A stretch of DNA of 64,000 nucleotides from Knoellia sp. S7-12 (lineage in GTDB: Bacteria; Actinomycetota; Actinomycetes; Actinomycetales; Dermatophilaceae), in contig NZ_CP155449.1 of assembly GCF_040518285.1 (NCBI RefSeq), positions 3,968,001-4,032,000 of the forward strand. Reading direction: 5' to 3'. The position numbers were made by a program, and so were the translations under genes. Shown in pieces: positions 1-62,657 of the stretch; positions within the stretch are counted from its first letter, which is position 1, and the number at the start of each line of letters is the position of its first letter. The notes under the pieces were generated by a model. That model was not told the origin of the DNA, made no database searches, and worked only from the letters and a program-made list of their open reading frames with translations.

Positions 1-625
1 GCAGGTGGACCCGGGCCGCCTCGGCGAGACCGGCGGGGTCGTCGGTGAGGTCGTCGGGTGCGGGGCGCCCGACCTTGCCCATCTCGCGGATGAAGATGTC
101 GCGGATTTCGGTGCGGTTGCGGTGGATCGCGGGGACGAGGATGTGGCTGGGTCGGTCGTGCCCGAGCTGCACGATGAGCTCGGCGAGGTCGGTCTCCCAC
201 GCGTTGATGCCAGCAGCCTCCAGGGCTTCGTTGAGCTCGATCTCCTGGGTCGCCATGGACTTCACCTTGACGACCTCGTCGACCTCCTTGGACCGCGCGA
301 TGTCGATGACGATCCGGTTGGCCTCATCGGCATCTCGCGCCCAGTGCACGACCGCGCCGTTTGCGACCAGTGACGCCTCGAGGTGCTCGAGGTAGTCGCC
401 GAGGTGGTGCAGCGCCTCGTCCTTGGACTGCGCTCCGGCAACGCGCAGGGCCTCCCACTCGGGCACCTCGGCGACGACAGACGCACGCTTGGCCCGGATC
501 GTGTGCGTCGCGTTGCGCAGGTTGGTCCGCTGCTGCGTGTTGGCCAGGGCCTCGCGTGCAGCCTCGGGGAACGCCGGCATACCGACGAAGGTCGCGGACG
601 TCTCCTGGACGGGTCCGATGCTCAT
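1..625 (-). CDS. lutB: Lactate utilization iron-sulfur protein LutB (partial)
   Basis: This is the N-terminal part (about 208 residues) of LutB, an iron-sulfur subunit of the LutABC system that oxidises L-lactate to pyruvate. The gene runs off the left edge, so the C-terminal ferredoxin-type cysteine clusters are not visible. What is visible is the LutB/LUD fold: the segment VKVKSMATQEIELNEAL, then ETDLAELIVQLGHDRPSHI, which are hallmarks of the family. The ATG at 625-623 overlaps the lutA stop codon as ATGA, so the two are translationally coupled. The call rests on recognised family motifs and on the lutA neighbour. Confidence 0.93.
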   Translation of the reverse strand, partial: MSIGPVQETSATFVGMPAFPEAAREALANTQQRTNLRNATHTIRAKRASVVAEVPEWEALRVAGAQSKDEALHHLGDYLEHLEASLVANGAVVHWARDADEANRIVIDIARSKEVDEVVKVKSMATQEIELNEALEAAGINAWETDLAELIVQLGHDRPSHILVPAIHRNRTEIRDIFIREMGKVGRPAPDDLTDDPAGLAEAARVHL

Positions 626-1392
626 GACGGGTTCTCCTGCGTCGAGGCGAGGATCTCGGCGAGATGCATGCGACGTATGCCGGAGCGTTGCCTTCCGAGG
701 ATCCCACCGATGTGTGCCAGGCAGGAGTTGTCGCCGGCAACGAGGACCTCGGCCCCGGTGTCGGTCACGTGCTGCGCCTTGTCGGTGCCCATCGCGACGG
801 AGACGTCGGCGTTCTTCATCGCGAACGTCCCACCGAAGCCGCAGCACTCCTCGGCACCGGGCAGGTCCACCAGGTCGATGCCCCGCACGGCGCGCAGCAG
901 CTGGAGCGGGCGGTCACCGACCCGCAGCATCCTCAGGGAGTGACACGTGGGGTGATAGGTGACGCGGTGGGGGAAGAAGGCGCCCACGTCGGTCACCTGG
1001 AGCACGTCGACGAGGAACTCCGACAGCTCGTAGACCTTGGGGGAGACCCGCTCGACCTCCGAGGCGAGCCCCGGATCGCCGGACAGGCGGGCGATCATCG
1101 GGTGCTGCTCACGCACCGATCCGACACACGAACCCGAAGGCGCCACGACTGCGTCGTAGTCCCCGAACACGTCGACGAAGCGAGCGACGAGCGGAACGGC
1201 CTCACCGGCATACCCCGTGTTCGTCAGCATCTGCCCGCAGCAGGTCTGCTCCATCGGGAACTCGACGCTCACCCCGAGACGCTCGAGCAGGCGCACCGTC
1301 GCCTTGGGCGCCTCCGGCCACATCGTGTCGTTGAAACAGGTGGCGAAGAGGGCGACCCGAAGGTCAGTGTCGCGAGGCGTCATTGCCGTCAT
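622..1392 (-). CDS. lutA: Lactate utilization protein LutA, (Fe-S)-binding oxidoreductase
   Basis: A 256-residue protein of the CCG-domain family. It carries two cysteine-rich CCG motifs, TCCGQMLTNTG near residue 50 and ECCGFGGTFAMKN near residue 185, as in LutA and glycolate oxidase GlcF. It is expected to work with LutB and LutC in cytoplasmic lactate oxidation. The open frame extends upstream to 1455, but that extension does not resemble the family. I chose the ATG at 1392 (MTAMTPRD); the ATG at 1383 is also possible, and no strong ribosome site separates them. It is the first gene of the operon, overlapping lutB by four bases. Confidence 0.93.
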   Translation of the reverse strand: MTAMTPRDTDLRVALFATCFNDTMWPEAPKATVRLLERLGVSVEFPMEQTCCGQMLTNTGYAGEAVPLVARFVDVFGDYDAVVAPSGSCVGSVREQHPMIARLSGDPGLASEVERVSPKVYELSEFLVDVLQVTDVGAFFPHRVTYHPTCHSLRMLRVGDRPLQLLRAVRGIDLVDLPGAEECCGFGGTFAMKNADVSVAMGTDKAQHVTDTGAEVLVAGDNSCLAHIGGILGRQRSGIRRMHLAEILASTQENPS

Positions 1393-1465
1393 GGGGCCAT
1401 CCAAGCAAGAACCGTCAACGGAAGCCCGCAATGTCGATGTATCTGCGGTGCACAACTCGCCCTCT

Positions 1466-1477: not shown

Positions 1478-1540
1478 GGCGGCGGAAACCGTTCTCGATC
1501 ACCGGCATCGAGCTCCGCCGACTGGAACTGGAGGGGTCCC

Positions 1541-3649: not shown

Positions 3650-3678
3650 TCACCTGCGAGTTCCATGCGTGAGCGACG

Positions 3679-3713
3679 CTGAACGGCATACAACCTCGGT
3701 GTATGCCGTTCAG
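3679..3713. terminator. Bidirectional hairpin between convergent genes
   Basis: A perfect 13-bp inverted repeat (arms 3679-3691 and 3701-3713, nine-base loop) between convergent genes. Each arm contains one copy of the dispersed octamer (CGGCATAC at 3684, GTATGCCG at 3701). There is no T-run, as is common for GC-rich actinobacterial terminators. Confidence 0.7.
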
Positions 3714-3731
3714 TCGCGTCCGCGCGACGCT

Positions 3732-5852: not shown

Positions 5853-6398
5853 TCAGCCGCGTTCCTGCCCACCAAGTCCGTCGAAGACTGACCAGCAGAT
5901 GTCGTTGCGCCGCTTCTGATCCTCGAGAACCAGGTCACGGATCCGGTCAGGCAGCTGGTCGCGCTGCCACTGGCACTCGCGCTGCATCGCCTGCTCCTTC
6001 TCGACTGCCGGCGCCGCTTCACCCACCGCCTTGATCGCGTATGCCGCCGCACCCAGGTCGTGCTCGGGGACGTGAGCGACGCACCCAGCCTGCCCAGCGG
6101 CATACGCCGCGAAGCGCGCCGCTCCACGCAAAGGTCGGGCGGCACCCATGGCATGGCCACCGGCCGCTCGCGCCACCATCATCGGGACTTCGCCGCGCAC
6201 CCAGGCTCGGGCGTGGTCGATGGCCTGACGAGGTCGGCCGTCTGCGGGCTGGACCGCCTGGAAGAGGTCGAGGACGTGTTCGGCGCACGTGGCCGACCAC
6301 AGTGCGAGCAGGTGATGGTCGGCGTCGGTGAGCGTCCCACCGCGACGGATCGTGATGAGTCGAGGGTCTCTGACCTTCGGCAGGATCATGGGACCCAT
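5853..6398 (-). CDS. Imm-5-like (putative immunity protein) domain protein
   Basis: A 181-residue alpha-helical protein. The segments LLALWSATCAEHVLDLFQ, AIDHARAWVRGE, repeated Ala-rich helices, and HVPEHDLGAAAYAIKAV match the family annotated as 'putative immunity protein' (Imm-5-like). Those names come from predicted toxin-immunity loci, but many members, like this one, stand alone with no toxin neighbour. A later ATG at 6389 has a better placed AGGA site. The function is unproven. The eda stop lies 49 bases upstream, so it may be transcribed with the edd-eda operon. Confidence 0.7.
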   Translation of the reverse strand: MGPMILPKVRDPRLITIRRGGTLTDADHHLLALWSATCAEHVLDLFQAVQPADGRPRQAIDHARAWVRGEVPMMVARAAGGHAMGAARPLRGAARFAAYAAGQAGCVAHVPEHDLGAAAYAIKAVGEAAPAVEKEQAMQRECQWQRDQLPDRIRDLVLEDQKRRNDICWSVFDGLGGQERG

Positions 6399-6447: not shown

Positions 6448-7116
6448 TCAGGTGTGCTGGCGAAGGGCTGCGGCCTCGGCAGCGAGGACCTCGATGCGAC
6501 CCCAATCCCCCTGCGCCACAGCGTCCTTTGGCGTCAGCCAGGAACCGCCGACGCAGCCGACGTTGGGCAGCGCGAGCCAGGCTGCGGCCGTCTCTGGCGT
6601 GACGCCACCCGTCGGGCAGAACCTCAGCTGTGGACACGGTCCGCTCACGGCCGACAGATAGGGTCGCCCGCCGCTCGCCTCTGCTGGGAAGAACTTCATC
6701 GCCGTGAGCCCGGCCTCGGCCAGCGTGAGCATCTCGGTCAGCGTGCCAGCGCCCGCGAGCAGCGGCAGGCCACTGGCCAGGGCGGCGTCGAGCAGCCGCG
6801 GCGGCGAGCCCGGCGTCACGAGGAACTGCGCCCCGGCGTCCTTGACCTGCTGCACCTGCTCCGGGGTCACCACCGTGCCTGCGCCGACGACGATGCCCTC
6901 GACCTGGGAGGCCACCGCCTCGATCGCGGCGAGTCCGGCGTCGCTGCGCAACGTGATCTCAATGACGGGTATGCCGCCGCGCACGAGGGCGCGGGCCAGC
7001 GGCACCGCCTGTTCGACCGAGTCCACGACGACGACAGGGATGACCGGGGCGAGGTCGAGGACGTCAGCCTCGCTCGTGATCACGGGTTGGGCGGTGGCCG
7101 GTGAAGCGCTGGTCAT
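6448..7116 (-). CDS. eda: KDPG/KHG aldolase
   Basis: A 222-residue class I aldolase that cleaves 2-keto-3-deoxy-6-phosphogluconate to pyruvate and glyceraldehyde 3-phosphate, the last step of the Entner-Doudoroff pathway. Active-site features are present: the catalytic Glu in IEITLRS, GAGTV, and the Schiff-base Lys in AMKFFPAEASGG. The length is normal. The ATG overlaps the edd stop as ATGA, so it is coupled to edd in one operon. Confidence 0.95.
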   Translation of the reverse strand: MTSASPATAQPVITSEADVLDLAPVIPVVVVDSVEQAVPLARALVRGGIPVIEITLRSDAGLAAIEAVASQVEGIVVGAGTVVTPEQVQQVKDAGAQFLVTPGSPPRLLDAALASGLPLLAGAGTLTEMLTLAEAGLTAMKFFPAEASGGRPYLSAVSGPCPQLRFCPTGGVTPETAAAWLALPNVGCVGGSWLTPKDAVAQGDWGRIEVLAAEAAALRQHT

Positions 7117-8999
7117 CGGGTCTCCTCGTGGCTGACGAACGGTGCGGCATCGCTCTGGTCCCAGACGTGGCCCAGATTTCCGAAGATGTGAGCGCCCTCG
7201 TCGGCCCGTCCGACCGCGGCGCGCATCGGTGCAAAGAGCTCGCGCCCCGTGCCCGACCCCACGGCGCTGACGCGTGGCGACGGGACCCGGGCCGAGAACT
7301 CCTCCTCGTCGACGAGCACGTCGAGCCGCCCGGTGAGTGAGTCCACCCGGATGAGGTCGCCGTCGTGGATCTTCGAGATCGGGCCGGCGTGCACGGACTC
7401 GGGGGTCACGTGGATGGCTGCCGGGATGGCGCCCGAAGCGCCACTCATGCGTCCATCGGTCACCAGCGCCACGGCATACCCACGTTTTTGAAGGACACCG
7501 AGCGAGGGGGTGAGGGCATGCAGCTCGGGCATTCCGTTGGCGCTGGGGCCCTGCTCGCGGATCACGACGATGACGTCCCGGTCGAGCTCGCGTCGCGAGA
7601 ACGCCTGGAGGAATCCGACCTGGTCGGTGAAGACGCGCGCTGGCGCTTCGATGACCCGGTGCTCGTCCTTGACCGCGGAGACCTTGATGACGGCGTGGCC
7701 CAGCGTGCCGCCGAGGACCCGCAGTCCACCGTCGACCGTGAACGGGTTGTCGGCCTCGCGCAGGACGCTGGCATCGCCGGATTCCGTGGCGATGTCGACG
7801 AATTCGAGCTGACCGTCGACGATCTGCGGGCGCTGGGTGTAGCGGCGCAGACCGGGACCGGCGACCGTCAGCACGTCCTCATGGAGCAGGCCGTGATCGA
7901 GCAGCGTGCGCACGAGGAACGCAGTGCCGCCGGCCGCGTGGAAGTGGTTCACGTCGGCGGGACCGTTGGGATAGATCCGGGCGATCGACGGGACGGCCGA
8001 CGACAGGTCGTCGAAGTCCTCCCACGTCAGGTCGATCCCGGCCGCGGCGGCCATCGAGATGAGGTGCATCGTGTGGTTCGTCGAGCCACCTGTCGCCAGG
8101 AGCGCGACGACACCGTTGACGACCGCCTTCTCGTCGACGACCTGACCGATGCCGTAGGGCGTGTCGGATGCGGCGATCTCCGCGATGCGGACGGTCGTCG
8201 CGGCGGTGAGTGCGTCACGCAGCGCGTCGTCCGGGTGGACGAACGCCGCTCCGGGCAGGTGCAGCCCCATGACGTCCATGAGCATCTGGTTGGAGTTGGC
8301 CGTGCCATAGAAGGTGCAGGTGCCCGGCGAGTGATAGGACGCGACCTCGCTCTCGAGCAGCTCGTCGCGGCCGACCTCGCCCGCTGCAAACGCCTTGCGG
8401 GTCTCTGCCTTGTCGGCGTTGGAGCGTCCGCTCGCCATCGGGCCGGCTGGGACGAGGGCGGTGGGCAGGTGACCGAAGGACAACGCGCCGGCCACGAGCC
8501 CCGGCACGATCTTGTCGCAGACACCGAGCATGAGAACGCCGTCGAAGACGTCATGCGACAGGGCGATCGCCGTCGACATGGCGATGACGTCGCGGCTGAA
8601 GAGGCTGAGCTCCATGCCCGCCCGACCCTGGGTGATGCCGTCGCACATGGCTGGCACCCCACCGGCGACGCGGGCGACGGCGCCGACCTCACGGGCGGTC
8701 TGCTTCATCGCAGCCGGGTAGTGCTCGAACGGCGCGTGGGCCGACAGCATGTCGTTGTAGGACGTGATGATGCCCAGGCTCACGCCGGTGTCGGCGGCCA
8801 TCGTGGTGCGGTCGGCGCCGCCACATGAGGCGACGGCGTGGGCGAGGTTCGAGCAACCGAGGTCGGTGCGAGCCGGGCGCAGGCTCAGCTCGGACGCGGC
8901 CCGCGAAAGGCGTTGGAGGTATGCCGTGCGGCTGGCTTCGCTGCGATCGGTCACGCGAGCGGTGACCCGGGCAACGACAGGGTGGATGACGGGGGCCAT
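7113..8999 (-). CDS. edd: 6-phosphogluconate dehydratase
   Basis: A 628-residue member of the IlvD/Edd family, which dehydrates 6-phosphogluconate to KDPG using an iron-sulfur cluster. Seen motifs are [16 protein letters not shown], the cluster cysteines in AMCDGITQG and GVCDKIVPG, and [17 protein letters not shown] near the C-terminus. I chose the ATG at 8999 because AGGAG precedes it and the Edd N-terminus begins there; the longer frame to 9236 is spurious. It forms a two-gene operon with eda. A perfect Crp/GlxR-like palindrome lies 60-83 bases upstream of the start. Confidence 0.95.
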
Positions 9000-10042: not shown

Positions 10043-10621
10043 ATGGAGGACGACTACACGACGCGGCTGCTGACACCAGAGACGTGGGACGACTTCGCCG
10101 TCCTCGTCGAGGCGAACAACGGTGTGTGGGGCGGCTGCTGGTGCATGGGCTTCCACCCGGAGGGGTTCGGCTCGAGCCCAAGCGTCGGCGGCAACCGGGC
10201 CGCCAAGGAGGCTCACGTGCGAGCCGGGACAGTGCACCAAGTGCTGGTGTATGCCGGCGACCAGTGCGTGGGTTGGTGCCAGTTCGGCAGTCCGGCAGAG
10301 CTCCCCAACATCAAGAACATCAAGGTCTATGAGAAAGAGGCTGTGGACCTGCCGGCCTGGCGGATCGGCTGCATCTTCACCGGGAGCAAGCACCGTGGGC
10401 GCGGTGTCGCTCGAGCTGCAGTGACGGCGGTTCTTCGCGAGATTCGGGCGGCCGGCGGTGGCGTCGTCGAGGCCTACCCGGAGCAGGTCGAGGAACGCGC
10501 GCCGCAGCGCGGGGCGTATCTCCACACCGGCCCGGAGAGCCTGTTCGAGGAGTTCGGGTTCGAGCGCGACCGCAAGATCGCCAAGTGGCGCTGGGTCATG
10601 CGCCTCGCCGTCACGCCCTGA
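10043..10621 (+). CDS. GNAT-fold N-acetyltransferase
   Basis: A 192-residue protein. The pattern GGCWCMGFHP in the N-terminal third, then VGWCQFGSP, and the CoA-binding segment FTGSKHRGRGVARAAVTAVL match a family of small GNAT acetyltransferases common in actinomycetes. The substrate is unknown. The ATG at 10043 is preceded by GAGGAGAG at 10028-10035, which overlaps the SDR stop, so the two genes are probably cotranscribed. Confidence 0.8.
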   Translation: MEDDYTTRLLTPETWDDFAVLVEANNGVWGGCWCMGFHPEGFGSSPSVGGNRAAKEAHVRAGTVHQVLVYAGDQCVGWCQFGSPAELPNIKNIKVYEKEAVDLPAWRIGCIFTGSKHRGRGVARAAVTAVLREIRAAGGGVVEAYPEQVEERAPQRGAYLHTGPESLFEEFGFERDRKIAKWRWVMRLAVTP

Positions 10622-10633
10622 GCGTGGGGTGAG

Positions 10634-10669
10634 ATTCCGGTATGCCGTGCGGGCACGGCATACCGGAAT
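10634..10669. terminator. 17-bp perfect hairpin between convergent genes
   Basis: Arms 10634-10650 and 10653-10669 pair perfectly with a two-base loop. Each arm contains the octamer GTATGCCG/CGGCATAC (10640 and 10656). It lies between the GNAT gene and the convergent permease, whose stop codon begins four bases further on. Confidence 0.75.
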
Positions 10670-10672
10670 GTC

Positions 10673-12031
10673 TCACTTGTCCTGCAGTTCCTCGGCGTCC
10701 TCGGCCTGCGTGCCCTCGCGCTTGCGAGCGTGGCGCGCAATGAAGAAGAGGATCGATCCCACGACCATGTAGGACAGGGCGATGAGCCAGGTCTGCATGC
10801 TCTGCTGCGTGAGCAGCGCGATGCTGGCTACGAGGGCCACGATCGAGACGATCCTCGGGGCCGTGAAGTGCTTGTGCTCGACCTTGTCCTTCTTGAGGAC
10901 GAGGACCGAGATGTTGGCCGAGATGAACACGAGCACCAGCAGCAGGACCGTCGTGTCGGCCAGCAGGTTCACGTCGCCGACGAAGCTCATCGCCATCGTC
11001 ACGGCGCCGATGACGAGGATCGAGACCCACGGCGTGCGACGGGTGGGAGCCACGCGGCCGAAGATCTCCGGCAGCAGGCCCGCCTCGGCCAGGCCATAGG
11101 TTGCGCGGCTGGCCATGACCATGAAGAGCAGGGCGCCGTTGCCGATGGCGATGAGGGCGATGGCCCCGAACAGCCACGACGGGAACGCCAGCTCGGAGGC
11201 CGTGATGACCGAGAGGAGCGGTGCGTCGGAGCCGGCCAGCTCTGGGGTCGGCACCACTCCGGCAGCGCCCAGGGCGATGAGCAGGTAGATGACGCCAGCG
11301 GTGAGCAGCGCTCCGAAGAGGGCACGTGGGTAGGCGCGGCTGGGGTCCTTGACCTCCTCGGCCATGTTGGCTGCGGCCTCGAAGCCGAGGAACGAGAAGA
11401 ACGCGGTGATGGTCGCCGCGAAGGCGCCCGTTATCGGGTTGATGCCCTCGGCGAAGGTCGTCACCCGGCTGATGTCACCGTCGCCTCTCCCGAGCACGAT
11501 CGCCGCGACGATGATGATGATGATGAGCCCGGTGGCCTCGATGACCGTCGCGCCCACGTTGGCCATGAGGGACTCGCGCACGCCCCGAAGGTTGATCGCG
11601 ACCAGCAGCGCGATAAAGACGAGCGTCACCGGCACCTTCGGCAGGTCGATGAGTGCCCCGAGGTACTCACCGGAGAAGGCGTTCGCGAGCGCGGCCGACG
11701 TCGTGATCCCCGAGGAGAGCATGAGGAAGCCGATGAGGAAGGTGACGTAGGGCTTGTTGAACGCCCGCTCCGCGTAGCGCGCGGCGCCACCCGCGTGGGG
11801 GTACTTGGTGATCAGCTCGGCATAGGTGCCGGCGGTGAGAAGGGCCAGCACCAGCGCGAAGATCAACGGCAGCCAGATGGCGCCCCCGACATCCTTGGCC
11901 ATGCCGCCGACCAACGTGTAGATGCCGGCACCGAGGGTGTCACCGACGATGAAGAAGAAGAGCAGCATCGGTGTGATGCCGCGCTTGAGCTTGGTGTCCG
12001 TCTCGCCTGTGTCCGACAGTGTTTGGGCCAT
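10673..12031 (-). CDS. APC-family amino acid permease
   Basis: A 452-residue polytopic protein with about 12 hydrophobic segments. Helix 1 carries the APC substrate-binding loop GDTLGAGIYTLVGG, and later FFSFLGFEAAANMAEEVKDPSRAYPRAL matches the conserved APC region around TM6-TM7. It is probably an H+-coupled amino-acid uptake system of the inner membrane; the substrate cannot be read from sequence. The frame extends to 12046, but MAQTLSD at 12031 is the more natural start. It is transcribed alone, divergently from the rnj unit. Confidence 0.88.
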   Translation of the reverse strand: MAQTLSDTGETDTKLKRGITPMLLFFFIVGDTLGAGIYTLVGGMAKDVGGAIWLPLIFALVLALLTAGTYAELITKYPHAGGAARYAERAFNKPYVTFLIGFLMLSSGITTSAALANAFSGEYLGALIDLPKVPVTLVFIALLVAINLRGVRESLMANVGATVIEATGLIIIIIVAAIVLGRGDGDISRVTTFAEGINPITGAFAATITAFFSFLGFEAAANMAEEVKDPSRAYPRALFGALLTAGVIYLLIALGAAGVVPTPELAGSDAPLLSVITASELAFPSWLFGAIALIAIGNGALLFMVMASRATYGLAEAGLLPEIFGRVAPTRRTPWVSILVIGAVTMAMSFVGDVNLLADTTVLLLVLVFISANISVLVLKKDKVEHKHFTAPRIVSIVALVASIALLTQQSMQTWLIALSYMVVGSILFFIARHARKREGTQAEDAEELQDK

Positions 12032-25391: not shown

Positions 25392-25667
25392 TCAGCCCGT
25401 GCGGCCATACCTCAGCGCCGAACGCTCCTTCGCCTTCGCCGCCTCGACCTCACGGTCCTTGGGCGGCGCCACCGTCACCAGGTGGTTCAACAGGTGCTGG
25501 GTCGCGTCGGCGACCTCACGCACCGCGGCATCGAAGGCCTCCTGGTTTGCCTGGGAAGGCTTGGTCGACCCACTCACCTTGCGCACGTACTGGAGCGCCG
25601 CGGCATACACCTCGGAGTCCGTGGCAGGCGGTTCGAAATTGTGCAGCTGACGGATGTTTCGGCACAT
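25392..25667 (-). CDS. DUF2277 family protein
   Basis: A 91-residue protein starting MCRNIRQLHNFEPPATDSEV, then AALQYVRKVSG and a C-terminal Lys/Glu-rich helix. The opening CRNI..L.NFEP and the YVRK(V/I)SG motif are diagnostic of DUF2277, a small actinobacterial and proteobacterial family of unknown function. It diverges from the DUF202 pair. Confidence 0.93.
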   Translation of the reverse strand: MCRNIRQLHNFEPPATDSEVYAAALQYVRKVSGSTKPSQANQEAFDAAVREVADATQHLLNHLVTVAPPKDREVEAAKAKERSALRYGRTG

Positions 25668-25735
25668 ACCTTCAGCGTATGCCGCCCGCTCGCCGACGAA
25701 AAGGGCTCACCGCTCGCGGTGGATAGGGTCAAGGC

Positions 25736-42836: not shown

Positions 42837-42884
42837 GATGTGATCCTTGCCGATGAATGTCAGAACAAACAAGGGGTATGCCGC

Positions 42885-43613: not shown

Positions 43614-43617
43614 GGAG

Positions 43618-44664
43618 TCAGGTCGAGGGACCCAGGCGCGGCGGCAGATTGTGCGGTGTGACGACCTGCACCGGCGCCGCGAACGAAGTCGGGGCACCTG
43701 GCAGCAGGTTGTGTGCACGCAACAGCTGACGCGAGGCCCGACCGAGGTCGGCCCGGAGATCGTGATGGAGCACGGCGTGCAGCGTGCCGTCCCTCAGCAG
43801 TCCCACGTTGTCGGCGTCGAGGTCGTGTCCGAGGTGCAGCCGTGGCAACACCCCTGCCGCCGCGAGCTCGGCTGCGATGGCACGGTTGCCGCCACCGGCG
43901 GAGTAGACCGCAGCAATGTCGCGCCGGCCGGCGAGCAGCTCCCTGACGAGTCCGGACATGCCGAGGTCCAGCCCGTCCGCGTCGGCGAGGACGACGACGT
44001 CACGGTCAGGATCGGTGCGGGCCAGCGCCTCGCAAAACCCGTCCAGTCGCTCCCGCTCGCCATAGAACGCAGAGCGACTGAGCGTGACGAGGCACGCCCC
44101 GGGCTCGGCACCGAGCCATTGCCGCACGAGATACGCGGCCGTCGCCCCCGCGCCCGCGTTGTCGGGTCCGAGGTAGGCGACGCGTGCGCTTTCGCGCACG
44201 TCCGTGACAAAGGTGACGACGGGTATGCCGCGTGCCGCCAGTCGGTCGACCGCCGCACCGATCGCGGGGTCGTCGGGTGCCTTGAGGAGGACTCCGTCGC
44301 TGACCTGCCCTCGCGTGCCGATCCGGTCGAGCACACGGAGGAGGTCCTCGACGGAGCCGCTCTCACGCAGGTGGAACCGAGCTCGCACCGTCGCCGGATG
44401 CAGCCCTGGGAGCTCCGCCTCGAGCGCTTCGCTGACGGCCTCGGAGAACCGTTTGGGTGCCTGCATCACGAGGTCGAGCACGAGGCTGCGGACTCCGAGC
44501 CGGACCTGCGTCAGCTGCCGGTCGAGCTCGAGGACGGCCCGCTCGACTGCTCGCACGGCTCGGGCACTGGCACCCGGTCGGCCGTGCACGACGCGGTCGA
44601 CGGTGGCCACGCTGACGCCTGCCTGGGAGGCGATGTCCTCGTGGCGATGGGGACCGTGCGGCAT
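43618..44664 (-). CDS. LacI-family transcriptional regulator (divergent type)
   Basis: A 348-residue regulator. The N-terminal helix-turn-helix is HEDIASQAGVSVATVDRVVHGRPGAS, the VATVxRVxxGRxGxS pattern of LacI proteins, though the hinge differs from the classical one and resembles the 'substrate-binding domain-containing' CytR-like group. The periplasmic-binding-like domain includes GIPVVTFVTDV and YLGPDNAGAGATAAYLV. It is next to the oxygenase gene at 44794, which it may control. I chose the ATG at 44664 because the HTH starts there. Confidence 0.88.
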   Translation of the reverse strand: MPHGPHRHEDIASQAGVSVATVDRVVHGRPGASARAVRAVERAVLELDRQLTQVRLGVRSLVLDLVMQAPKRFSEAVSEALEAELPGLHPATVRARFHLRESGSVEDLLRVLDRIGTRGQVSDGVLLKAPDDPAIGAAVDRLAARGIPVVTFVTDVRESARVAYLGPDNAGAGATAAYLVRQWLGAEPGACLVTLSRSAFYGERERLDGFCEALARTDPDRDVVVLADADGLDLGMSGLVRELLAGRRDIAAVYSAGGGNRAIAAELAAAGVLPRLHLGHDLDADNVGLLRDGTLHAVLHHDLRADLGRASRQLLRAHNLLPGAPTSFAAPVQVVTPHNLPPRLGPST

Positions 44665-44793
44665 ACGCCCCACAGTAGGTTCGGGAAGCGCACGGTGAGG
44701 GATTTCTGAGGGGTTAGGGCACTGGCGGCACGTCCGAAGGACGAGCACGCTGGAAGTCGACGGAGCACCACCACCACGAACGGACGACACGCC

Positions 44794-46102: not shown

Positions 46103-46891
46103 GTGGCCTTCACTGATCTGCTCGCCGACAAGATCGTCCTCGTGGTCGGGGGCACCGTCGGCCTCGGGGCCGGCATCGCCCGAGCCACCGCACGTGAGAA
46201 GGCCGAGGCGGTTGTCGTCACCGGGCGCCGCAAGGACCGTGGTGACCAGATCGTCGAGGAGCTGACCGCGCTCGGGGGGCAGGCGGCATACGTTCACGGA
46301 GACGTGAGCGACCCTGCGAGCGCCACGGGCGTGGTGCGCGAGACGATCGAGCGGTTCGGTCGGATCGACTGCCTCGTCAATGCCGCCGGACTCACCACGC
46401 GCGGAACGCTGCTCGACACGACACCCGAACTGTTCGACGAGCACGTCGCCGTCAACCTGCGCGGTCCGTTCTTCACGATGCAGGCTGCGGTCGCCGACAT
46501 GGTGGAGCGCAAGGCACCTGGCACCGTCGTCAACATCATCAGCACGTCGGAGCTGGGTGGCCAGCCGTTCCTCGCGCCGTATGTCGCGACCAAGGGAGGC
46601 CTCGCCGCCCTGACCCGCAACGTCGCCCACGCCCACCGGTGGGACCGGGTCCGGGTCAACGGGCTCGACATCGGCTGGTCGCAGACCGAGGGCGAGGACG
46701 CCATCCAGCGCGAGTTCCACGGTGCCGGCGACGACTGGGTCGAGAAGGCCAACGCGACGCTGCCGATGGGCAAGCTCGGCCAGGTCGACGAGATCGCCGA
46801 CATGGTCGTGTTCCTCCTGTCCGACCGCAGCGGGGTCGTCACCGGATCCGTCATCGACTGGGACCAGATCGTCCAAGGCGCCCACGGCTGA
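46103..46891 (+). CDS. Short-chain dehydrogenase, sugar/polyol type
   Basis: A 262-residue classical SDR. The cofactor motif is VVGGTVGLGAGIARA, then CLVNAAG, the catalytic Ser in ISTSELGG and YVATKGG (YxxxK). The C-terminal EIADMVVFLLSDRSGVVTG is typical of tetrameric polyol dehydrogenases. The GTG at 46103 follows GCAGGAG; the frame upstream includes the operator. It leads a unit with the dehydrogenase at 46919 and the universal-stress-like gene. Confidence 0.88.
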   Translation: MAFTDLLADKIVLVVGGTVGLGAGIARATAREKAEAVVVTGRRKDRGDQIVEELTALGGQAAYVHGDVSDPASATGVVRETIERFGRIDCLVNAAGLTTRGTLLDTTPELFDEHVAVNLRGPFFTMQAAVADMVERKAPGTVVNIISTSELGGQPFLAPYVATKGGLAALTRNVAHAHRWDRVRVNGLDIGWSQTEGEDAIQREFHGAGDDWVEKANATLPMGKLGQVDEIADMVVFLLSDRSGVVTGSVIDWDQIVQGAHG

Positions 46892-46918: not shown

Positions 46919-47932
46919 ATGCGCATCGGACTCATCGGCCTCGGCCGCATCGGCGCCTTCCACGCCGACACCCTCGCTGCCCTCGACCGCGTCGAGGAGC
47001 TCGTCGTCACCGACCCCGTCACCGCCGTCGTCGACGGCGTGACGAGTCGCGTGGCCAAGGCTCGCGCCGTCGCCTCACCTGCGGACCTCTTCGGGGCCGA
47101 CATCGACGGGGTCGTCATCGCCGCGGCGACCAACGCCCACGCCGAACTGTTGCTGGCTGCGACCGAGCGAGGCATCCCGACGTTCTGCGAGAAGCCGATT
47201 GCGGGGACCGCCGACGAGGCCGTGCTGGTGCGCGACAAGCTCAAGGGCTCGACGGTGCCGGTGCAGATCGGCTACCCGCGTCGCTTCGACCCGGCGTTCG
47301 TCGCCGCCCGGGACGCCGTGCGCGACGGCACCCTCGGCCGGGTGCACACGGTGCGCTCGACCACGTTGGACCCGGCACCGCCACCTGCCGCGTATCTTGC
47401 GGTGTCCGGTGGGATCTTCCGAGACTGCGCGATCCACGACTTCGACGCCGTCCGCTGGGTCACCGGACAGGAGGTCGTCTCAGTCCATGCGGTCGGCTCG
47501 GTCGATCCCGATGCTGCACACGAGATGTATGCCGCCCACGGCGACTTCTCGACCGCGTCCACCCTGTTGACATTGGCCGACGGAACGATCGGGGTCGTGT
47601 CCAACACGAGGACCAATGCTCGCGGCTATGACGTGCGACTCGAGGTCCACGGGGTGCTCGACTCCGTGGCCGCGGGCTACGACGAAGGGCTACCGGTGCG
47701 GGCGACCCAGCCGGGCATCACGTGGCCGGCGGGACCGCCCCACACGTTCTTCATGGACCGGTTGGCGGAGGCTTTCCGGCGTGAGCTCTCGACGTTCTGC
47801 GAGGTCGCGGCGGGTGAGCTGCCGTCACCGTGCACCGTCGAGGACGCGATGGGGACGACGTGGGCGGCCGAGGCCGCGAGCCTGTCAGCCCGCGAAGGGC
47901 GCCCCGTCCGGATTGATGAGGTCGCCCGCTGA
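46919..47932 (+). CDS. Inositol 2-dehydrogenase-like Gfo/Idh/MocA oxidoreductase
   Basis: A 337-residue dehydrogenase very similar in layout to the IolG at 53935-54954. IGLIGLGRIGAFHADTLA is the Rossmann motif, TFCEKPIA carries the catalytic Lys, and GGIFRDCAIHDFDAVRWV contains the active-site Asp/His. It probably oxidises myo-inositol or a stereoisomer such as scyllo- or chiro-inositol with NAD+. It lies 27 bases after the SDR gene. Confidence 0.9.
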   Translation: MRIGLIGLGRIGAFHADTLAALDRVEELVVTDPVTAVVDGVTSRVAKARAVASPADLFGADIDGVVIAAATNAHAELLLAATERGIPTFCEKPIAGTADEAVLVRDKLKGSTVPVQIGYPRRFDPAFVAARDAVRDGTLGRVHTVRSTTLDPAPPPAAYLAVSGGIFRDCAIHDFDAVRWVTGQEVVSVHAVGSVDPDAAHEMYAAHGDFSTASTLLTLADGTIGVVSNTRTNARGYDVRLEVHGVLDSVAAGYDEGLPVRATQPGITWPAGPPHTFFMDRLAEAFRRELSTFCEVAAGELPSPCTVEDAMGTTWAAEAASLSAREGRPVRIDEVAR

Positions 47933-49494: not shown

Positions 49495-50709
49495 ATGATG
49501 ACCGCACCGATCGGTGTCGCCGTGATTGGAGCCGGCATGGCCGGACGAGCACACTGCGCCGGATACCGCACCGCGCCAACGCTCTTCGATCCCCCGCTGC
49601 CGCCGATCCACTACGCCGCGGTCATTGACGCCAACCCGAGCGTTGCTGCTGATGCAGCGACGCGTTACGGCTACGAGCGGTCCGGCTCGGACTGGCGCAC
49701 CCTGCTCGACGCCCCGGACGTCCAGGTCGTCAGCGTCGTCGTGGCCAACACCCTGCATCGCGAGATCGTCGAGGCCCTCCTCGACGCCGGCAGGCACGTC
49801 CTGTGCGAGAAGCCGCTCGCCGACACGCTCACCAACGCCAGGGCTATGTCCGATGCCGCGGCCGCCCACCCCGAGCTTGTGACCGGGACCGCCTTCGTCT
49901 ATCGCCGCCAGCCCGCCGTCGCCGCCCTCCGCGAGCTCGTCCGCGACGAGTTCGGCGAGGTCTCCCACTTCAACGGGAGCTACTGGTGCGACTACGCCCT
50001 GAGCCCGGCGACGCCCATGGCCTGGCGCTACAAGGGCGCCCCCGGCACCGGCGCGCTCGCCGATATCGGCAGCCACCTCATCGATCTTGCGGAGTTCGTC
50101 TGCGGACCCATGACCGCCGTCGGTGGCGCGGCGTTCACGACGAAGATCACCAAGCGTTTTGTCCCCCTCGGGACGACCTACGGACACGCCGCTGCCGAGC
50201 TCTCGGATGTCGCGGAACCAGTGGAGAACGACGACGTCGCCACTTTCACGGCGCACTTCGCGTCGGGTGCGGTCGGCACGTTCTCCGTCTCCCGGGTTGC
50301 CCCGGGGCACGCGAACTCGCTCGCCTTCGACGTCATGGCCCAGCACGGCGGCGCCAAGTGGAACATGGATCGGCCCGCCGAGTTCTCCGTGGCACGGAAG
50401 TCGCGCGGCGACGGGTTCGACGGCTACAACCAGGTCCTCGTCGGCCCGGCCCATCCCTACCTCAAGGGCGGTGTGCCGATGGACTTCCCCGGCGTCTCCT
50501 ACGGCGTGGGTGACCTCTTCGGGTTCCAGGCACGCGCCTTCCTCGAGCAGGTCGCCGGCATCGAGGGTGGGCTGCCGCCCGTCGCGACCTTCGCCGACGG
50601 GGTGCGCGACTTGACAATCATCGACGCCGTCACCCGATCGGCCGGCGCCGGAGGTGCAGTCGTCGAGCTCGCTGCCCAGCCCGACGCGGCCATCCCGATC
50701 ACCAACTGA
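49495..50709 (+). CDS. Gfo/Idh/MocA family oxidoreductase
   Basis: A 404-residue dehydrogenase. GVAVIGAGMAGRAHCAGY binds NAD(P), HVLCEKPLADTL has the catalytic Lys, and TGALADIGSHLIDLAEFV is the C-terminal active-site helix (D..GSHxxD). The longer C-terminal domain (ending near residue 404) fits the branch that oxidises sugars such as myo-inositol derivatives or glucosides. AGGAG precedes the ATG. It is followed by a probable isomerase gene after a hairpin. Confidence 0.9.
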   Translation: MMTAPIGVAVIGAGMAGRAHCAGYRTAPTLFDPPLPPIHYAAVIDANPSVAADAATRYGYERSGSDWRTLLDAPDVQVVSVVVANTLHREIVEALLDAGRHVLCEKPLADTLTNARAMSDAAAAHPELVTGTAFVYRRQPAVAALRELVRDEFGEVSHFNGSYWCDYALSPATPMAWRYKGAPGTGALADIGSHLIDLAEFVCGPMTAVGGAAFTTKITKRFVPLGTTYGHAAAELSDVAEPVENDDVATFTAHFASGAVGTFSVSRVAPGHANSLAFDVMAQHGGAKWNMDRPAEFSVARKSRGDGFDGYNQVLVGPAHPYLKGGVPMDFPGVSYGVGDLFGFQARAFLEQVAGIEGGLPPVATFADGVRDLTIIDAVTRSAGAGGAVVELAAQPDAAIPITN

Positions 50710-50710
50710 T

Positions 50711-50743
50711 GCGTATGCCGTGTGGTGACCACACGGGATACGC
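50711..50743. promoter_or_regulatory. Intercistronic hairpin with dispersed octamer
   Basis: Arms 50711-50725 and 50729-50743 pair with one G-G mismatch and a TGA loop. The left arm contains GTATGCCG; the right arm contains the same octamer with one change. It separates the dehydrogenase and isomerase genes and may act as a weak terminator or mRNA-stability element. Confidence 0.6.
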
Positions 50744-50779
50744 CACCCCTGTCCTTCCCCTCACCTCCAAGGAGTCCCC

Positions 50780-52334: not shown

Positions 52335-53840
52335 TCACTGGTTCTGGGGGAACCCGAGGTTGAGGCCACCGTGTGACGGGTCGAGCCAGCGTGAGGTGAC
52401 GACCTTGCCGCGGGTGAAGAAGTGAACACCCTCCATGCCGTGGGCGTGGGAGTCACCGAAGAGCGAGTTCTTCCAGCCGCCGAAGGAGAAGTAGGCCATC
52501 GGCACGGGGATGGGGACGTTGATGCCGACCATGCCGACCTCGACCTCGTTCTGGAAGCGACGAGCCGCTCCGCCATCGTTCGTGAAGATCGCGGTGCCAT
52601 TGCCGTAAGGGCTCTCGTTGATTAGCTTGAGGCCTTCGTCGTAGGTGCCCACCCGCACCACGGACAGGACCGGGCCGAAGATCTCGTCGTCGTAGACCGG
52701 CATACCGGGCTCGACCTTGTCGAACAGTGTCGGTCGGAGGAAGAACCCGTCACCGTCGGAGTCGACGTCACCTTCACGACCGTCGACGACGAGCGTGGCG
52801 CCGGCGTCGACCCCCTTGTCGAGGTAGGACGCGACCTTGTCGCGGTGCTCACGGGTCACGAGCGGGCCCATGTCGCTGCCGCGGGTCCCGTCGCCAGTGA
52901 CGAGCTTGCCCATGCGGTCGGTGATCTTGGAGATGAGGTCGTCCGCGATCGAGTCAACCGCCACCAGGGCGGAGATCGCCATGCAGCGCTCACCGGCCGA
53001 TCCGAAGCCCGCGTTGACAGCTGCATCCGCCGCCAGGTCGAGATCCGCATCGGGAAGGACGAGCATGTGGTTCTTGGCGCCTCCGAGTGCCTGGACGCGC
53101 TTGCCGTGGGCGGTGCCCTTCTCGTAAACGTACTTCGCGATCGGGGTGGAGCCGACGAAGGACACGGCCTTCACGTCCTCGTGCTCGAGGAGCGCATCGA
53201 CCGCCTCCTTGTCGCCGTGGACGACGTTCATGATTCCGTCCGGAAGCCCGGCCTCCTTCCACAGTGCCGCAATGGCGTTCACCGCCGACGGGTCCTTCTC
53301 GGACGGCTTGATGATGACCGCGTTGCCGCAGGCGATCGCGATCGGCACGAACCAGAGGGGCACCATTGCGGGGAAGTTGAACGGGCTGATCACCGCGACG
53401 ACACCAAGTGACTGGCGCATCGAGTAGACGTCGACCTTGGTCGAGACGTTCTCGGAGAAGCCGCCCTTGAGCAGGTGCGGGATGCCACACGCGAACTCAG
53501 CGACCTCGAGACCCCGGGTCACTTCGCCCACGGCGTCGGAGACGACCTTGCCGTGCTCGGCGGTGATGAGGGCGCCGATCTCGTCCTTCTTGGCATTGAG
53601 CAGCTCACGGAAGGCGAACAGCACCTGGGTCCGCTTCGTGAGGCTTACGTGCTGCCATTCATTCTCCCAAGCCGTCCGAGCACCACGCACGATCTCGTCG
53701 ACGAGCTGGGCTGAAGCGAGATCGAGCTCACCGCTCTGCACCCCGGTGGCGGGGTTGAAGACGGGACTCGTGCGCTCGGCGGCGCCCTCCCACGGGGCGC
53801 CGCTGATGAGGTGGGTGATGCGGCTCGGAGTCGTGCTCAC
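52335..53840 (-). CDS. iolA: CoA-acylating methylmalonate/malonate-semialdehyde dehydrogenase
   Basis: A 501-residue aldehyde dehydrogenase that converts malonate semialdehyde and CoA to acetyl-CoA and CO2, the last inositol-pathway step. Seen: SPFNFPAMVPLWFVP, the nucleophile Cys286 in GSAGERCMAIS, GPVLSVVRV, and the MmsA-specific C-terminus FFTRGKVVTSRWLDP. It starts at a GTG with AAGGA upstream. A decayed copy of its last ~25 codons lies at 41504-41580. Confidence 0.95.
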   Translation of the reverse strand: MSTTPSRITHLISGAPWEGAAERTSPVFNPATGVQSGELDLASAQLVDEIVRGARTAWENEWQHVSLTKRTQVLFAFRELLNAKKDEIGALITAEHGKVVSDAVGEVTRGLEVAEFACGIPHLLKGGFSENVSTKVDVYSMRQSLGVVAVISPFNFPAMVPLWFVPIAIACGNAVIIKPSEKDPSAVNAIAALWKEAGLPDGIMNVVHGDKEAVDALLEHEDVKAVSFVGSTPIAKYVYEKGTAHGKRVQALGGAKNHMLVLPDADLDLAADAAVNAGFGSAGERCMAISALVAVDSIADDLISKITDRMGKLVTGDGTRGSDMGPLVTREHRDKVASYLDKGVDAGATLVVDGREGDVDSDGDGFFLRPTLFDKVEPGMPVYDDEIFGPVLSVVRVGTYDEGLKLINESPYGNGTAIFTNDGGAARRFQNEVEVGMVGINVPIPVPMAYFSFGGWKNSLFGDSHAHGMEGVHFFTRGKVVTSRWLDPSHGGLNLGFPQNQ

Positions 53841-57897: not shown

Positions 57898-58635
57898 GTG
57901 CACACGATCCCTGTCAGCATCGATCGCGCCAGCCCCGTGCCGCTCTACCACCAGCTCGCGGAACAGCTGAACGCAGCGATCGATGACGGTCGCCTCAAGC
58001 CCGGCGACCCCTTCGAGAATGAACTGGCCCTCGCGGCGCGGCTCGACCTCTCTCGCCCCACGGTGCGGCGCGCCATCGCCGAACTCGTGGGTCGCGGGCT
58101 CCTCGTGCGCCGGCGCGGGGTTGGCACGACCGTTGCGAGTCAGGTCATCCACCGGCGCGACGAGCTCACCAGCCTTTACGACGACATGGTCCGCCGAGGA
58201 CAGAAGCCGCGCACCGAGGTCCTCTCCTTCAGTGCCGACGAGGTCAACTCCGCTGCCGCGGCTGCCCTCGACCTGCCCGCCGACACCCCTTTGCTGAGCG
58301 TCGAACGCCTTCGCTACGTCGGAGACATCCCTGCGGCACTCATGCACAACTGGCTCCCTCCTCAGTACGCCGACCTCCTTGAGGAGGATCTGGCCCGCGA
58401 GAGTCTCTACAGCCTCCTGCGCCAGCGCGGGGTGCGTCCCGTCATCGCCCACCAGACGATCGGCGCGCGCCGACCCGTGCCTCGCGAACGCAAGCTGCTC
58501 GGACTGGCCACGGGCGACCCTCTCCTCACGATGACTCGGCGGGCGTATGCCGCGAACGGCACCGCCGTGGAGTACGGCGACCACTGCTACCGCTTCGACC
58601 AGTACGCGTTCGACGTCACGGTTCACGACCGCTGA
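57898..58635 (+). CDS. GntR-family (HutC/UTRA) regulator of the inositol genes
   Basis: A 245-residue regulator. The winged helix includes VPLYHQLAEQLNAAIDDGRL and ENELALAARLDLSRPTVRRAI; the UTRA effector domain covers about residues 95-240 (ERLRYVGDIPAALMHNWLP). It is divergent from iolC and flanked by two of the five TGTCYTRACA sites, so it probably is the IolR-type regulator that binds them, with an inositol intermediate as effector. The GTG at 57898 lacks a ribosome site and has a -10-like box just upstream, consistent with leaderless translation. Confidence 0.92.
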   Translation: MHTIPVSIDRASPVPLYHQLAEQLNAAIDDGRLKPGDPFENELALAARLDLSRPTVRRAIAELVGRGLLVRRRGVGTTVASQVIHRRDELTSLYDDMVRRGQKPRTEVLSFSADEVNSAAAAALDLPADTPLLSVERLRYVGDIPAALMHNWLPPQYADLLEEDLARESLYSLLRQRGVRPVIAHQTIGARRPVPRERKLLGLATGDPLLTMTRRAYAANGTAVEYGDHCYRFDQYAFDVTVHDR

Positions 58636-58695: not shown

Positions 58696-58743
58696 TTTGC
58701 CCATGAGCCTTGCGGCGCCCTGCCGTGGTCGAGGAGGACCGAC

Positions 58744-60692: not shown

Positions 60693-60749
60693 CCCACCCC
60701 GTGCACCACCCGCCAGCCCCATCGACCACTCACGACGAAGGACCCTGAC

Positions 60750-62657
60750 ATGACTCGGACCGTGCGCCTCACGACCGCGCAAGCGCTCGTGAAGTTCTTG
60801 GCCAGCCAGTATTCCGAGCGGGATGGAGTTGAACAGCGACTCGTCACAGGGATGTTCGGGATCTTCGGCCACGGGAACGTGGCTGGGGTGGGGCAGGCGC
60901 TGCTCCAGGCGCAGGTGGAGTCCGAGGACGGTGCGACCGGCGACGGGGTGCTGGGCTCGCTCCCCTACTACCTGGCCCGCAACGAGCAGGGTGCCGTGCA
61001 CGCGGCCACGGCCTTCAGCCGGGCCCGCAACCGCCGCCAGGTCATGGCCGTGACGACGTCGATCGGCCCTGGGGCGACGAACATGGTGACCGGCGCGGCC
61101 CTGGCGACGACCAACCGCATCCCGGTGCTGCTCCTGCCGTCCGACCAGTTCGCCACCCGGGTGCCCGACCCCGTGCTTCAGCAGCTCGAGGACCCGGGCA
61201 CCCTCGACGTCACCGTCAACGACGTGTTCCGACCGGTGTCCCGCTTCTTCGACCGGATCAGCCGACCTGAGCAGCTCATCCCCTCGCTCATGAACGCCAT
61301 GCGGGTTCTCACCGACCCAGCCGACACCGGAGCCGTCACGGTGGCGCTGCCGCAGGACGTTCAGGCCGAGGCCCACGACTGGCCGCTCGCATTCTTCGCC
61401 AAGCGCGTCTGGCACATCGGGCGACCGGTGCCAGAGCCGGCCGCACTGGCGCGAGCGGTGGAGCTCATTCGATCTGCCAAGCGGCCGCTGATCGTCGCAG
61501 GTGGCGGGGTCATCTACTCGGAGGCCTCCGAGGAACTGCGCGCCTTCGCCACCGCGACCGGTATCCCCGTGTCCGACACCCACGCGGGCAAGGGCGCCAT
61601 CAACTGGGACCACCCGTCCGCGGTCGGGGGCGTGGGCTCGACCGGATCGGCCGCCGCCAACGAGCTGGCCCGCGGCGCCGACGTGGTCATCGGCTTCGGC
61701 ACGCGCTACTCCGACTTCACGACCGCGAGCCACACGATCTTCGCGTCCGAGGACGTCCGGTTCGTCAACATCAACCTCCTGGGGTTCGACGCGGCCAAGC
61801 ACGGCGCGGCGATGCTCGTCGCCGACGCCCGCGAGGCCCTGCGGGCCCTGACGACCGAGCTCGACGGTTGGGAGGTGGAACCGGCATACCGTGAGGAGGC
61901 CATTGATCTCGATGCCGCGTGGCAGCGGGTCGTCGACGAGTGCTACCACCGCGAGCAGACTCCGCTGCCCGCACAGACGGAGGTCTTCGGCGCGCTCAAC
62001 GAGCTCATGGGACCCGAGGACGTCATCATCAACGCCGCCGGCTCGATGCCTGGTGACCTGCAGTGCCTGTGGCGGGCGTCGTCGCCCGTGCAGTACCACG
62101 TGGAGTACGCCTTCTCCTGCATGGGCTATGAGATCCCGGCGTCCCTCGGGGTGAAGATGGCGCTCGGCGACGACCACGAGGTCGTCGCGATCGTCGGCGA
62201 CGGCACCTATCAGATGCTCCCGATGGAGATCGCGACGATCGTCTCCGAGGGTGTCAAGGTGATCATCGTGCTGCTCCAGAACCACGGGTTCGCCTCGATC
62301 GGCGCCCTCTCGGAGTCGCGGGGGTCGCAGCGCTTCGGAACGAAATACCGCATGCGGTCCTCAAGTGGCCGCCTGGACGGCTCCACCGTGCCCCTGGACC
62401 TTGCAGCGAACGCGGCCTCCTGGGGGGCCGACGTGCTGCGCTGCGGCTCGATGGCGGAGTTCCGCGAGAACTATGGCCGTGCGGCTGCCTCCGACCGCGC
62501 CACCGTGCTCTACATCGAGACTGACCTCCTCGGTCCGAACCCACCGGGCTCGGCCTGGTGGGACGTTCCCGTGTCGCAGGTGTCGACCCTTGAGTCGACC
62601 CAGAAGGCGTATGCAGAGCACCTCGACAATCAGCGCGGGCAGCGCACCTACCTCTGA
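60750..62657 (+). CDS. iolD: 3D-(3,5/4)-trihydroxycyclohexane-1,2-dione hydrolase
   Basis: A 635-residue thiamine-diphosphate enzyme that opens the cyclitol ring to 5-deoxy-glucuronate. Seen: TGMFGIFGHGNVAGVGQAL, QGAVHAATAFSRARNRRQ, the central domain LIVAGGGVIYSEAS, and the ThDP/Mg motif VAIVGDGTYQMLPMEI near residue 485. The length and the GIFGHGNVAG motif are specific to IolD. It starts 57 bases after the transaldolase-like gene and is followed by a long promoter region. Confidence 0.96.
   Translation: MTRTVRLTTAQALVKFLASQYSERDGVEQRLVTGMFGIFGHGNVAGVGQALLQAQVESEDGATGDGVLGSLPYYLARNEQGAVHAATAFSRARNRRQVMAVTTSIGPGATNMVTGAALATTNRIPVLLLPSDQFATRVPDPVLQQLEDPGTLDVTVNDVFRPVSRFFDRISRPEQLIPSLMNAMRVLTDPADTGAVTVALPQDVQAEAHDWPLAFFAKRVWHIGRPVPEPAALARAVELIRSAKRPLIVAGGGVIYSEASEELRAFATATGIPVSDTHAGKGAINWDHPSAVGGVGSTGSAAANELARGADVVIGFGTRYSDFTTASHTIFASEDVRFVNINLLGFDAAKHGAAMLVADAREALRALTTELDGWEVEPAYREEAIDLDAAWQRVVDECYHREQTPLPAQTEVFGALNELMGPEDVIINAAGSMPGDLQCLWRASSPVQYHVEYAFSCMGYEIPASLGVKMALGDDHEVVAIVGDGTYQMLPMEIATIVSEGVKVIIVLLQNHGFASIGALSESRGSQRFGTKYRMRSSSGRLDGSTVPLDLAANAASWGADVLRCGSMAEFRENYGRAAASDRATVLYIETDLLGPNPPGSAWWDVPVSQVSTLESTQKAYAEHLDNQRGQRTYL

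Follow-up and report, generated by a model that had tools for sequence, protein, structure and literature searches.

An abundant, conserved octamer in Knoellia and related actinobacteria as the probable core of a DNA uptake sequence

A 64,000-nucleotide stretch of the Knoellia sp. S7-12 chromosome (hereafter, the window) carries 33 exact copies of the octamer GTATGCCG—18 on the plus and 15 on the minus strand. A sequence-only reading of this stretch had arrived at the same count, which an exact search confirmed, and had likened the repeat to the uptake sequences of Neisseria (DUS) and Pasteurellaceae (USS). Our analysis supports this interpretation with respect to abundance, strand balance, depletion in a mobile element, flanking preferences and occurrence in related genera. 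We consider it quite probable that GTATGCCG, together with spaced A/T flanks, constitutes the core of an independently evolved DNA uptake sequence, recognized by a receptor protein on the surface of a Flp/Tad competence pilus and served by ComEA and ComEC.

Dinucleotide-shuffled versions of the window contained a mean of 0.82 and a maximum of 3 copies, and an order-2 Markov model, with 1.31 copies expected, placed GTATGCCG first among the window's octamers by over-representation. The corresponding genome (G000; other genomes are denoted Gnnn and the stretches read Lnnn) is a single contig of 4,163,720 bases and harbors 2,805 copies (1,406 plus, 1,399 minus; 0.67 per kb), as compared to 79 copies (33 plus, 46 minus) of a control, the same word reversed. 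Further analyses of this genome relied on a sample that comprised the window and 60 further stretches, each 20 kb long (1.264 Mb in total, 30% of the genome), containing 855 copies. With 38.7 copies expected from an order-3 Markov model, the excess in this sample is 22-fold, and the initial estimate of ‘about tenfold’ was hence too low; a count close to the Markov expectation was looked for and is absent. Under the same model, the 24 single-base variants of the word were at most 2.2-fold in excess. The commonest of them was GGATGCCG (173 vs 138 expected) and the one with the greatest excess CTATGCCG (81 vs 36.6; 2.2-fold), while several fell below expectation, such as GTATGACG (13 vs 44.7).

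Genes in the sample were called with a home-made gene finder, yielding 1,135 genes (83% coding) with rough start sites. Coding regions comprise 638 copies in both orientations (0.61 per kb) and intergenic regions 217 copies (1.03 per kb). When synonymous codons were shuffled gene by gene, 62 copies remained (standard deviation 7; 50 permutations) as opposed to 626 observed, a ten-fold difference, and no other octamer present 20 or more times was as extreme as GTATGCCG. Amino-acid and codon usage thus accounts for roughly one tenth of the gene copies rather than for all of them, in line with the proposal that selection acts on DNA and not on protein. The accompanying claim that the repeat employs otherwise avoided codons was examined in aggregate: TAT is the minor tyrosine codon (1,215 vs 3,387 TAC in high-scoring sampled genes), and 275 of the 1,769 TAT and 216 of the 4,559 GCA codons in all sampled genes lie inside GTATGCCG. 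Codon choice can be followed across genomes in the Flp-like pilin gene of the Tad locus referred to as heli_sec, where a pattern search found the peptide EYAV in 18 out of 20 loci (not in G060 and G069). It is spelled GAG-TAT-GCC-GT in 11 of the 12 genomes with more than 300 GTATGCCG copies (the exception being G003) and with TAC in the other six, two of which use a GGATGCCG dialect (see below) and four of which are poor in the word. Here, codon choice tracks GTATGCCG while the amino acids stay identical. Other words likewise exceeded codon expectation in the sampled genes (L017–L076 and the window), namely the palindrome CACCGGTG (270 vs 118) and GAGCAG-type octamers, for example CGAGCAGG (510 vs 292).

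GTATGCCG is maintained at the DNA level between species. G000 and its congener G065 were aligned in 30 blocks totaling 94.8 kb (84.5% identity), 12.5 kb of which belong to a common mobile element with one copy of the word. Out of 62 copies in G000, 54 were exact in G065, as were 54 of the 63 G065 copies in G000, whereas octamers composed of the same letters and serving as a control, a few of which may overlap GTATGCCG itself, were conserved in 2,807 of 7,378 cases (38%). Column identity amounted to 0.94–0.98 within the core and 0.95 at position +9, in surroundings of 0.69–0.95 (mean of ~0.83, estimated by eye). We also compared ten pairs of comEC loci, counting copies from both sides and using a control without octamers near GTATGCCG. 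Conservation exceeded the control in nine pairs, ranging from 8/17 (control 0.23) up to 12/13 (control 0.25); in the tenth, formed by G105 and G048 (both weak in GTATGCCG), 0 out of 2 copies were conserved.

With respect to the flanks, whose conservation had been predicted, A is favored at positions −11 to −7 and T at +9, +11, +14 and +19 to +20, with A being almost missing at +9. Apart from these weak preferences, copies share no sequence beyond GTATGCCG. As a control we used NNATGCCG sites of matching frame class, separately for intergenic copies and four coding classes (at least 40 copies each). T+9, one of A−8/A−7 and one of T+14/T+19 reached z-scores of at least 3.5 in four of these five classes; the fifth (43 copies) gave z-scores of 2.3 for T+9, 3.0 for A−7 and 4.2 for T+14. 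Some positions were unremarkable in some classes.

Inspecting neighboring copies at most 60 bp apart revealed 37 inverted and 2 direct pairs (26 and 2, respectively, with both copies intergenic). Close pairs overall occur at chance level (39 vs 34.7 expected) and are unusual only in their orientation. The earlier suggestion that the repeat forms intergenic hairpins stands for three window sites, with folding z-scores of −5.5 (3684/3701), −8.0 (10640/10656) and −4.8 for a near pair at 50713, the second arm of which, CGGGATAC, has one mismatch to CGGCATAC. It does not extend to the repeat as a whole, however, as inverted pairs within 60 bp comprise a minority of copies: 74 out of 855 overall and 54 out of 217 intergenic ones.

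To describe the chromosomal layout, we took the contig start as the origin (an assumption; GC skew is weak) and considered the 1.264 Mb sampled out of 4.16 Mb. Forward and reverse copies numbered 197 and 181 in one chromosome half and 243 and 234 in the other, meaning that there is no replichore polarity and that the predicted strand balance holds on both replichores. Density was nearly even from origin to terminus (0.61–0.79 per kb), and the spacing of copies resembled a random one (coefficient of variation of 1.00 vs 1.02).

Islands had been predicted to be depleted of the word, and a conjugative element common to G000 and G065 is indeed poor in it. The longest GTATGCCG-free gap of the G000 sample, 17.8 kb reaching to the end of stretch L027, carries a TraG/TraD-type coupling protein and a weak TrbL match. 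Homology to this element in G065 extends over 148.8–205.2 kb of contig 1, in patches at 83–90% that total 32 kb, and this 56-kb span harbors 3 copies; of the first 420 kb, the 364 kb read outside the span contain 226. An alternative figure of 12 copies in 140–240 kb vs 217 in the other 320 kb was discarded because its limits had been chosen from the counts, and the homology bounds were used instead. An 11.9-kb gap in L047 carries a serine recombinase. Beyond the gaps read for gene content, others of 8.1–9.9 kb lie in L035, L038 and L075; six of ten gap proteins scanned for families had none. Within the window, the stretch between 10664 and 25600 had been described as foreign DNA, free of copies except for one in an insertion sequence. 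There is indeed a single copy (19067), situated in an open reading frame (ORF; 18834–19913) with an rve transposase/integrase domain, but the content of the gap is partly non-foreign, as it also carries genes for RNase J, an amino-acid permease and DnaB besides the insertion sequence.

We next consider the prevalence of the word in the family Dermatophilaceae, based on 119 genomes from 53 genera, classified as rich (at least 200 copies per Mb) or poor (at most 45 per Mb). Of these, 61 were rich, 45 poor and 13 in between, in agreement with the expected presence in related genera; all five sampled members of the window's own genus are rich (2,535–3,277 copies). Counts in named genomes range widely, with 1,988 copies in Intrasporangiaceae bacterium URHB0013, 841 (control 12) in Ornithinimicrobium sp. 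CNJ-824, 149 in an Austwickia sp., 50 in Ornithinicoccus halotolerans and 18 in Janibacter indicus; six named genomes taken as other families have 14–61. In an order-wide sample of 198 genomes, 14 of them from the family, none of the other 184 was rich when GTATGCCG only was counted; their maximum of 167 copies was found in a genome with 184 control copies.

Ranking the top words of 40 comEC loci (14–20 kb) without a preset word returned GGATGCCG in G103 and G026, and GTATGACG beside GTATGCCG in G003 and G114. Genome-wide, GGATGCCG occurs 2,099–4,480 times in seven of the 119 genomes (G016, G026, G044, G064, G079, G103 and G118) and 241–1,336 times in the remaining ones; the genus to which G044 and G103 belong combines it with 288–1,217 copies of GTATGCCG. 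GTATGACG reaches 1,662–1,966 copies in each of the four genomes sampled from genus g27 and 1,557 in G003, with a smaller excess in some others, such as G004 (834) and G116 (729), 44 copies in G000 and a minimum of 6. In the GGATGCCG-dialect genomes, T+9 stood at 0.41 and 0.35 (G103) and at 0.24 and 0.09 (G026), from few copies. One-base dialects are a further hallmark of uptake sequences, unforeseen in the sequence-only reading.

On a ComEC tree of 44 rows, built by a quick method and containing nine weak forks, G026 and G103 each sit among GTATGCCG genomes, in different groups with good support. Genomes poor in the word, namely G069, G083, and G037 (together with G101 and Janibacter), branch from among rich ones. 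With weak genomes scored as not poor, this tree requires a minimum of 8 changes between poor and not poor. Gain, change and loss of the word have therefore been recurrent. As side observations, genus g2 (G001, G083, G106), poor in GTATGCCG, has 1,336, 949 and 851 copies of GGATGCCG—that of G001 being the highest count outside the seven dialect genomes—and may retain remnants of a lost GGATGCCG dialect, and one 20-kb locus of G048 (L116) contains CGGCGTAC (GTACGCCG) 17 times vs 3.2 expected, a possible further one-base dialect judged from this single-locus count.

Genes with a predicted role in uptake are present in the window's genome. A comEA gene (SLBB and HhH domains) adjoins comEC, and one Tad locus encodes a TadA-like ATPase, two T2SSF proteins, two TadE-like proteins (one just below the Pfam cut-off) and a TadE/G-like protein; the heli_sec Tad locus comes in addition. 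As a discriminator between rich and poor genomes, T2SSF (116 of 119 genomes) gave no clean split, and PilM (PF11104), a marker of type IVa pili, matched in 5 of the 119 genomes and not in G000. Small pilin-like ORFs following heli_sec TadC were too variable to name a receptor. The best candidate was TadC of the L037 Tad locus, a strong match to which was absent from 14 of 44 motif-low vs 3 of 61 motif-rich genomes (Fisher p = 3e-4, at a hand-set cut-off of E 1e-20 and with a statistic that ignores kinship). Elsewhere in G000, two small membrane-protein ORFs, presumably an SMR efflux pair, lie between TadC and the Flp-like gene (L217:8325-9760). PilM_2 is rare in the family; G025 has a match followed, 7 kb on, by two T2SSF matches in one frame (G025:C2:210707-219418), perhaps a type IVa-like pilus locus.

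We propose that competent cells would use a Flp/Tad-type pilus, through one of its surface proteins, to bind double-stranded DNA bearing GTATGCCG. This protein, located in the pilus or at its tip, may contact the core and read or bend the A/T-preferring flanks, and retraction could then deliver the DNA to ComEA and ComEC, as their homologues suggest. Recombination would swap resident alleles, and copies would spread and persist because DNA bearing them enters cells and recombines at a higher frequency; biased uptake of this sort predicts conservation of the word between species, as seen. The dialects suggest that an altered receptor specificity might shift the word to GGATGCCG or GTATGACG, and in lineages losing the uptake preference copies would decay.

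Several observations weigh against this proposal. None of the genes tested in the 119 genomes cleanly separates rich from poor, and no receptor emerged among them; the receptor is therefore a prediction. Specifically, comEC is found in 115 of the 119 genomes irrespective of whether they are rich or poor (no match was obtained in G029, G033, G034 and G085, which comprise 330–760 contigs with completeness of 58–95 and have 341–1,407 copies), and heli_sec TadA scored above the cut-off in 106 of 119, poor genomes included. L037 TadC as the sole explanation is contradicted by G017, G092 and G047; between G017 and G092, both lacking a strong match, the word is conserved at 18 of 22 copies (counted from both sides) vs 0.34 for the control. 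The flank positions were picked after the profile had been viewed, and a second, small control of 28 intergenic GTAVGCCG sites likewise showed T+9 at 0.43. Finally, the window's genome may itself not be fully competent at present because an island interrupts its heli_sec Flp-like pilin gene: the alignment with G065, in which the gene is intact, breaks within it and resumes ~161 kb further on (L029:2358), and the DNA after the break is poor in GTATGCCG and related to the G065 element. The most straightforward interpretation is an insertion that hit a possible competence pilin gene, a rearrangement being a possible alternative; of the region concerned (G000:C1:680962-842358), parts outside 760–770 and 790–840 kb were read (L237, L027, L238, L239, L028, L029).

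An intracellular role in recombination or segregation, as a Chi-like or KOPS element or the site of a chromosome-organizing protein, would equally involve an abundant word that is conserved between species and acts on DNA within and between genes. Chi and KOPS are, however, biased in orientation with respect to replication, and some chromosomal sites are specific to ter or ori, as opposed to the lack of polarity (with the origin assumed at the contig start) and the even density observed here. Given also that the word is absent or replaced by a one-base variant in close relatives, odd for an essential chromosome function, we regard such a role as unlikely. A target of a DNA methylase, or of some other system that marks self DNA in defence or repair, is even less probable. 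Genome-wide abundance and depletion in a mobile element would suit it, and dialects are also possible, but GTATGCCG is non-palindromic and has preferences over ~10 bp on each side, and methylases usually read less than a core with such flanks.

That the word acts in RNA, as a terminator or processing signal, is suggested by the inverted pairs formed by a quarter of the intergenic copies (54/217) and by the three well-folding window sites. Yet 638 of 855 copies lie in genes, in both orientations, and 74 belong to inverted pairs, making this explanation very improbable. Hardly credible, in our view, is a product of composition or codon bias, or the spread of a small mobile repeat, neither of which found any support: bias leaves 62 of 626 gene copies after synonymous permutation and would have to raise one word 22-fold and its variants at most 2.2-fold, and a mobile repeat is at odds with copies that have nothing in common beyond weak flank preferences. 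A DNA uptake sequence thus remains our preferred reading.

The positions of all window copies are compiled in Table 1. Within the window, ARAGORN called a tRNA-Gln (plus strand, 6205-6300), which is probably false because it lies inside an ORF on the opposite strand (5853-6398, minus) with an Imm5-like immunity domain (E 4.8e-37).

Table 1 Copies of GTATGCCG and hairpins formed by them in the window
Feature	Position	Strand	Evidence
GTATGCCG copy	575..582	-	exact match
GTATGCCG copy	675..682	+	exact match
GTATGCCG copy	1206..1213	-	exact match
Hairpin, two facing copies	3670..3722	.	exact pair + folding
GTATGCCG copy, hairpin arm	3684..3691	-	exact match
GTATGCCG copy, hairpin arm	3701..3708	+	exact match
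GTATGCCG copy	6039..6046	+	exact match
GTATGCCG copy	6098..6105	-	exact match
GTATGCCG copy	6969..6976	+	exact match
GTATGCCG copy	7472..7479	-	exact match
GTATGCCG copy	8919..8926	+	exact match
GTATGCCG copy	10249..10256	+	exact match
Hairpin, two facing copies	10628..10676	.	exact pair + folding
GTATGCCG copy, hairpin arm	10640..10647	+	exact match
GTATGCCG copy, hairpin arm	10656..10663	-	exact match
GTATGCCG copy within transposase ORF	19067..19074	+	exact match, domain search
GTATGCCG copy	25601..25608	-	exact match
GTATGCCG copy	25677..25684	+	exact match
GTATGCCG copy	27945..27952	+	exact match
GTATGCCG copy	28746..28753	+	exact match
GTATGCCG copy	29138..29145	-	exact match
GTATGCCG copy	30953..30960	-	exact match
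GTATGCCG copy	31017..31024	+	exact match
GTATGCCG copy	38626..38633	+	exact match
GTATGCCG copy	39477..39484	-	exact match
GTATGCCG copy	40082..40089	-	exact match
GTATGCCG copy	42876..42883	+	exact match
GTATGCCG copy	44223..44230	+	exact match
GTATGCCG copy	44659..44666	-	exact match
GTATGCCG copy	46284..46291	-	exact match
GTATGCCG copy	47527..47534	+	exact match
Hairpin, exact copy + facing one-mismatch copy	50704..50752	.	sequence + folding
GTATGCCG copy, hairpin arm	50713..50720	+	exact match
GTATGCCG copy	52698..52705	-	exact match
GTATGCCG copy	58545..58552	+	exact match
GTATGCCG copy	61882..61889	-	exact match

According to a 2025 account, uptake-sequence behavior is known from no families other than Neisseriaceae and Pasteurellaceae (PMC12616744). 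Among the papers listed by our searches, judged by title in the case of the word itself, we saw no earlier account of the GTATGCCG repeat or of an actinobacterial uptake sequence, most subscription journals and all preprints being outside the coverage. The kind of system is hence known, whereas novelty lies in the host phylum, the word and, probably, the receptor. We lean towards seeing here a third independent origin of uptake-sequence-guided exchange and the first in Gram-positives, with a receptor carried by a Flp/Tad rather than a type IVa pilus and a family history of gain, dialect change (involving GTATGCCG, GGATGCCG at least twice, and GTATGACG) and decay. If true, a third family from another phylum would imply that selective sex of this kind evolves repeatedly, and would offer a monoderm system, devoid of an outer-membrane secretin, in which to seek the receptor. 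The many rich, poor and dialect-switched genera within one family would lend themselves to comparative tests, natural competence would be predicted across the family, and the word could serve as a practical tag for transforming these bacteria.

Among known repeats, HIP1 of cyanobacteria is likewise a very abundant octamer found in genes and between them, for which a methylase or self-marking role has been proposed. HIP1 is palindromic, unlike GTATGCCG with its dialects and spaced flank preferences. As for competence, the actinobacterium Micrococcus luteus requires Flp/Tad pili for transformation and resembles the present case in its comEA, comEC and Flp/Tad loci with TadE-type minor pilins; the excerpt available of that study makes no mention of an uptake sequence (PMC6370729). 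The Pasteurellaceae USS shares with GTATGCCG a short core with A/T-preferring flank positions, the Haemophilus USS having AT-tracts in its flanks (PMC7811141). Its cores AAGTGCGGT and ACAAGCGGT (PMC12616744) are unrelated to GTATGCCG and belong to a different phylum, and in G000 the A-rich positions lie upstream and the T positions downstream of the core. The neisserial DUS differs in its constant CTG core (PMC12616744), which GTATGCCG lacks on either strand, and in its hosts, the present one being a high-GC actinobacterium without a match to PilM, a part of the type IVa machine. Its receptor is ComP; the receptor here is a prediction. DUS distribution has been used to find conjugative elements (PMC7371117). 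With about 1,900 DUS in 2.2–2.3 Mb, Neisseria spans a range of densities that includes the one found here, and the two systems have in common thousands of copies, one-base dialects, the presence of two dialects in a genome and intergenic inverted pairs (PMC3630211).

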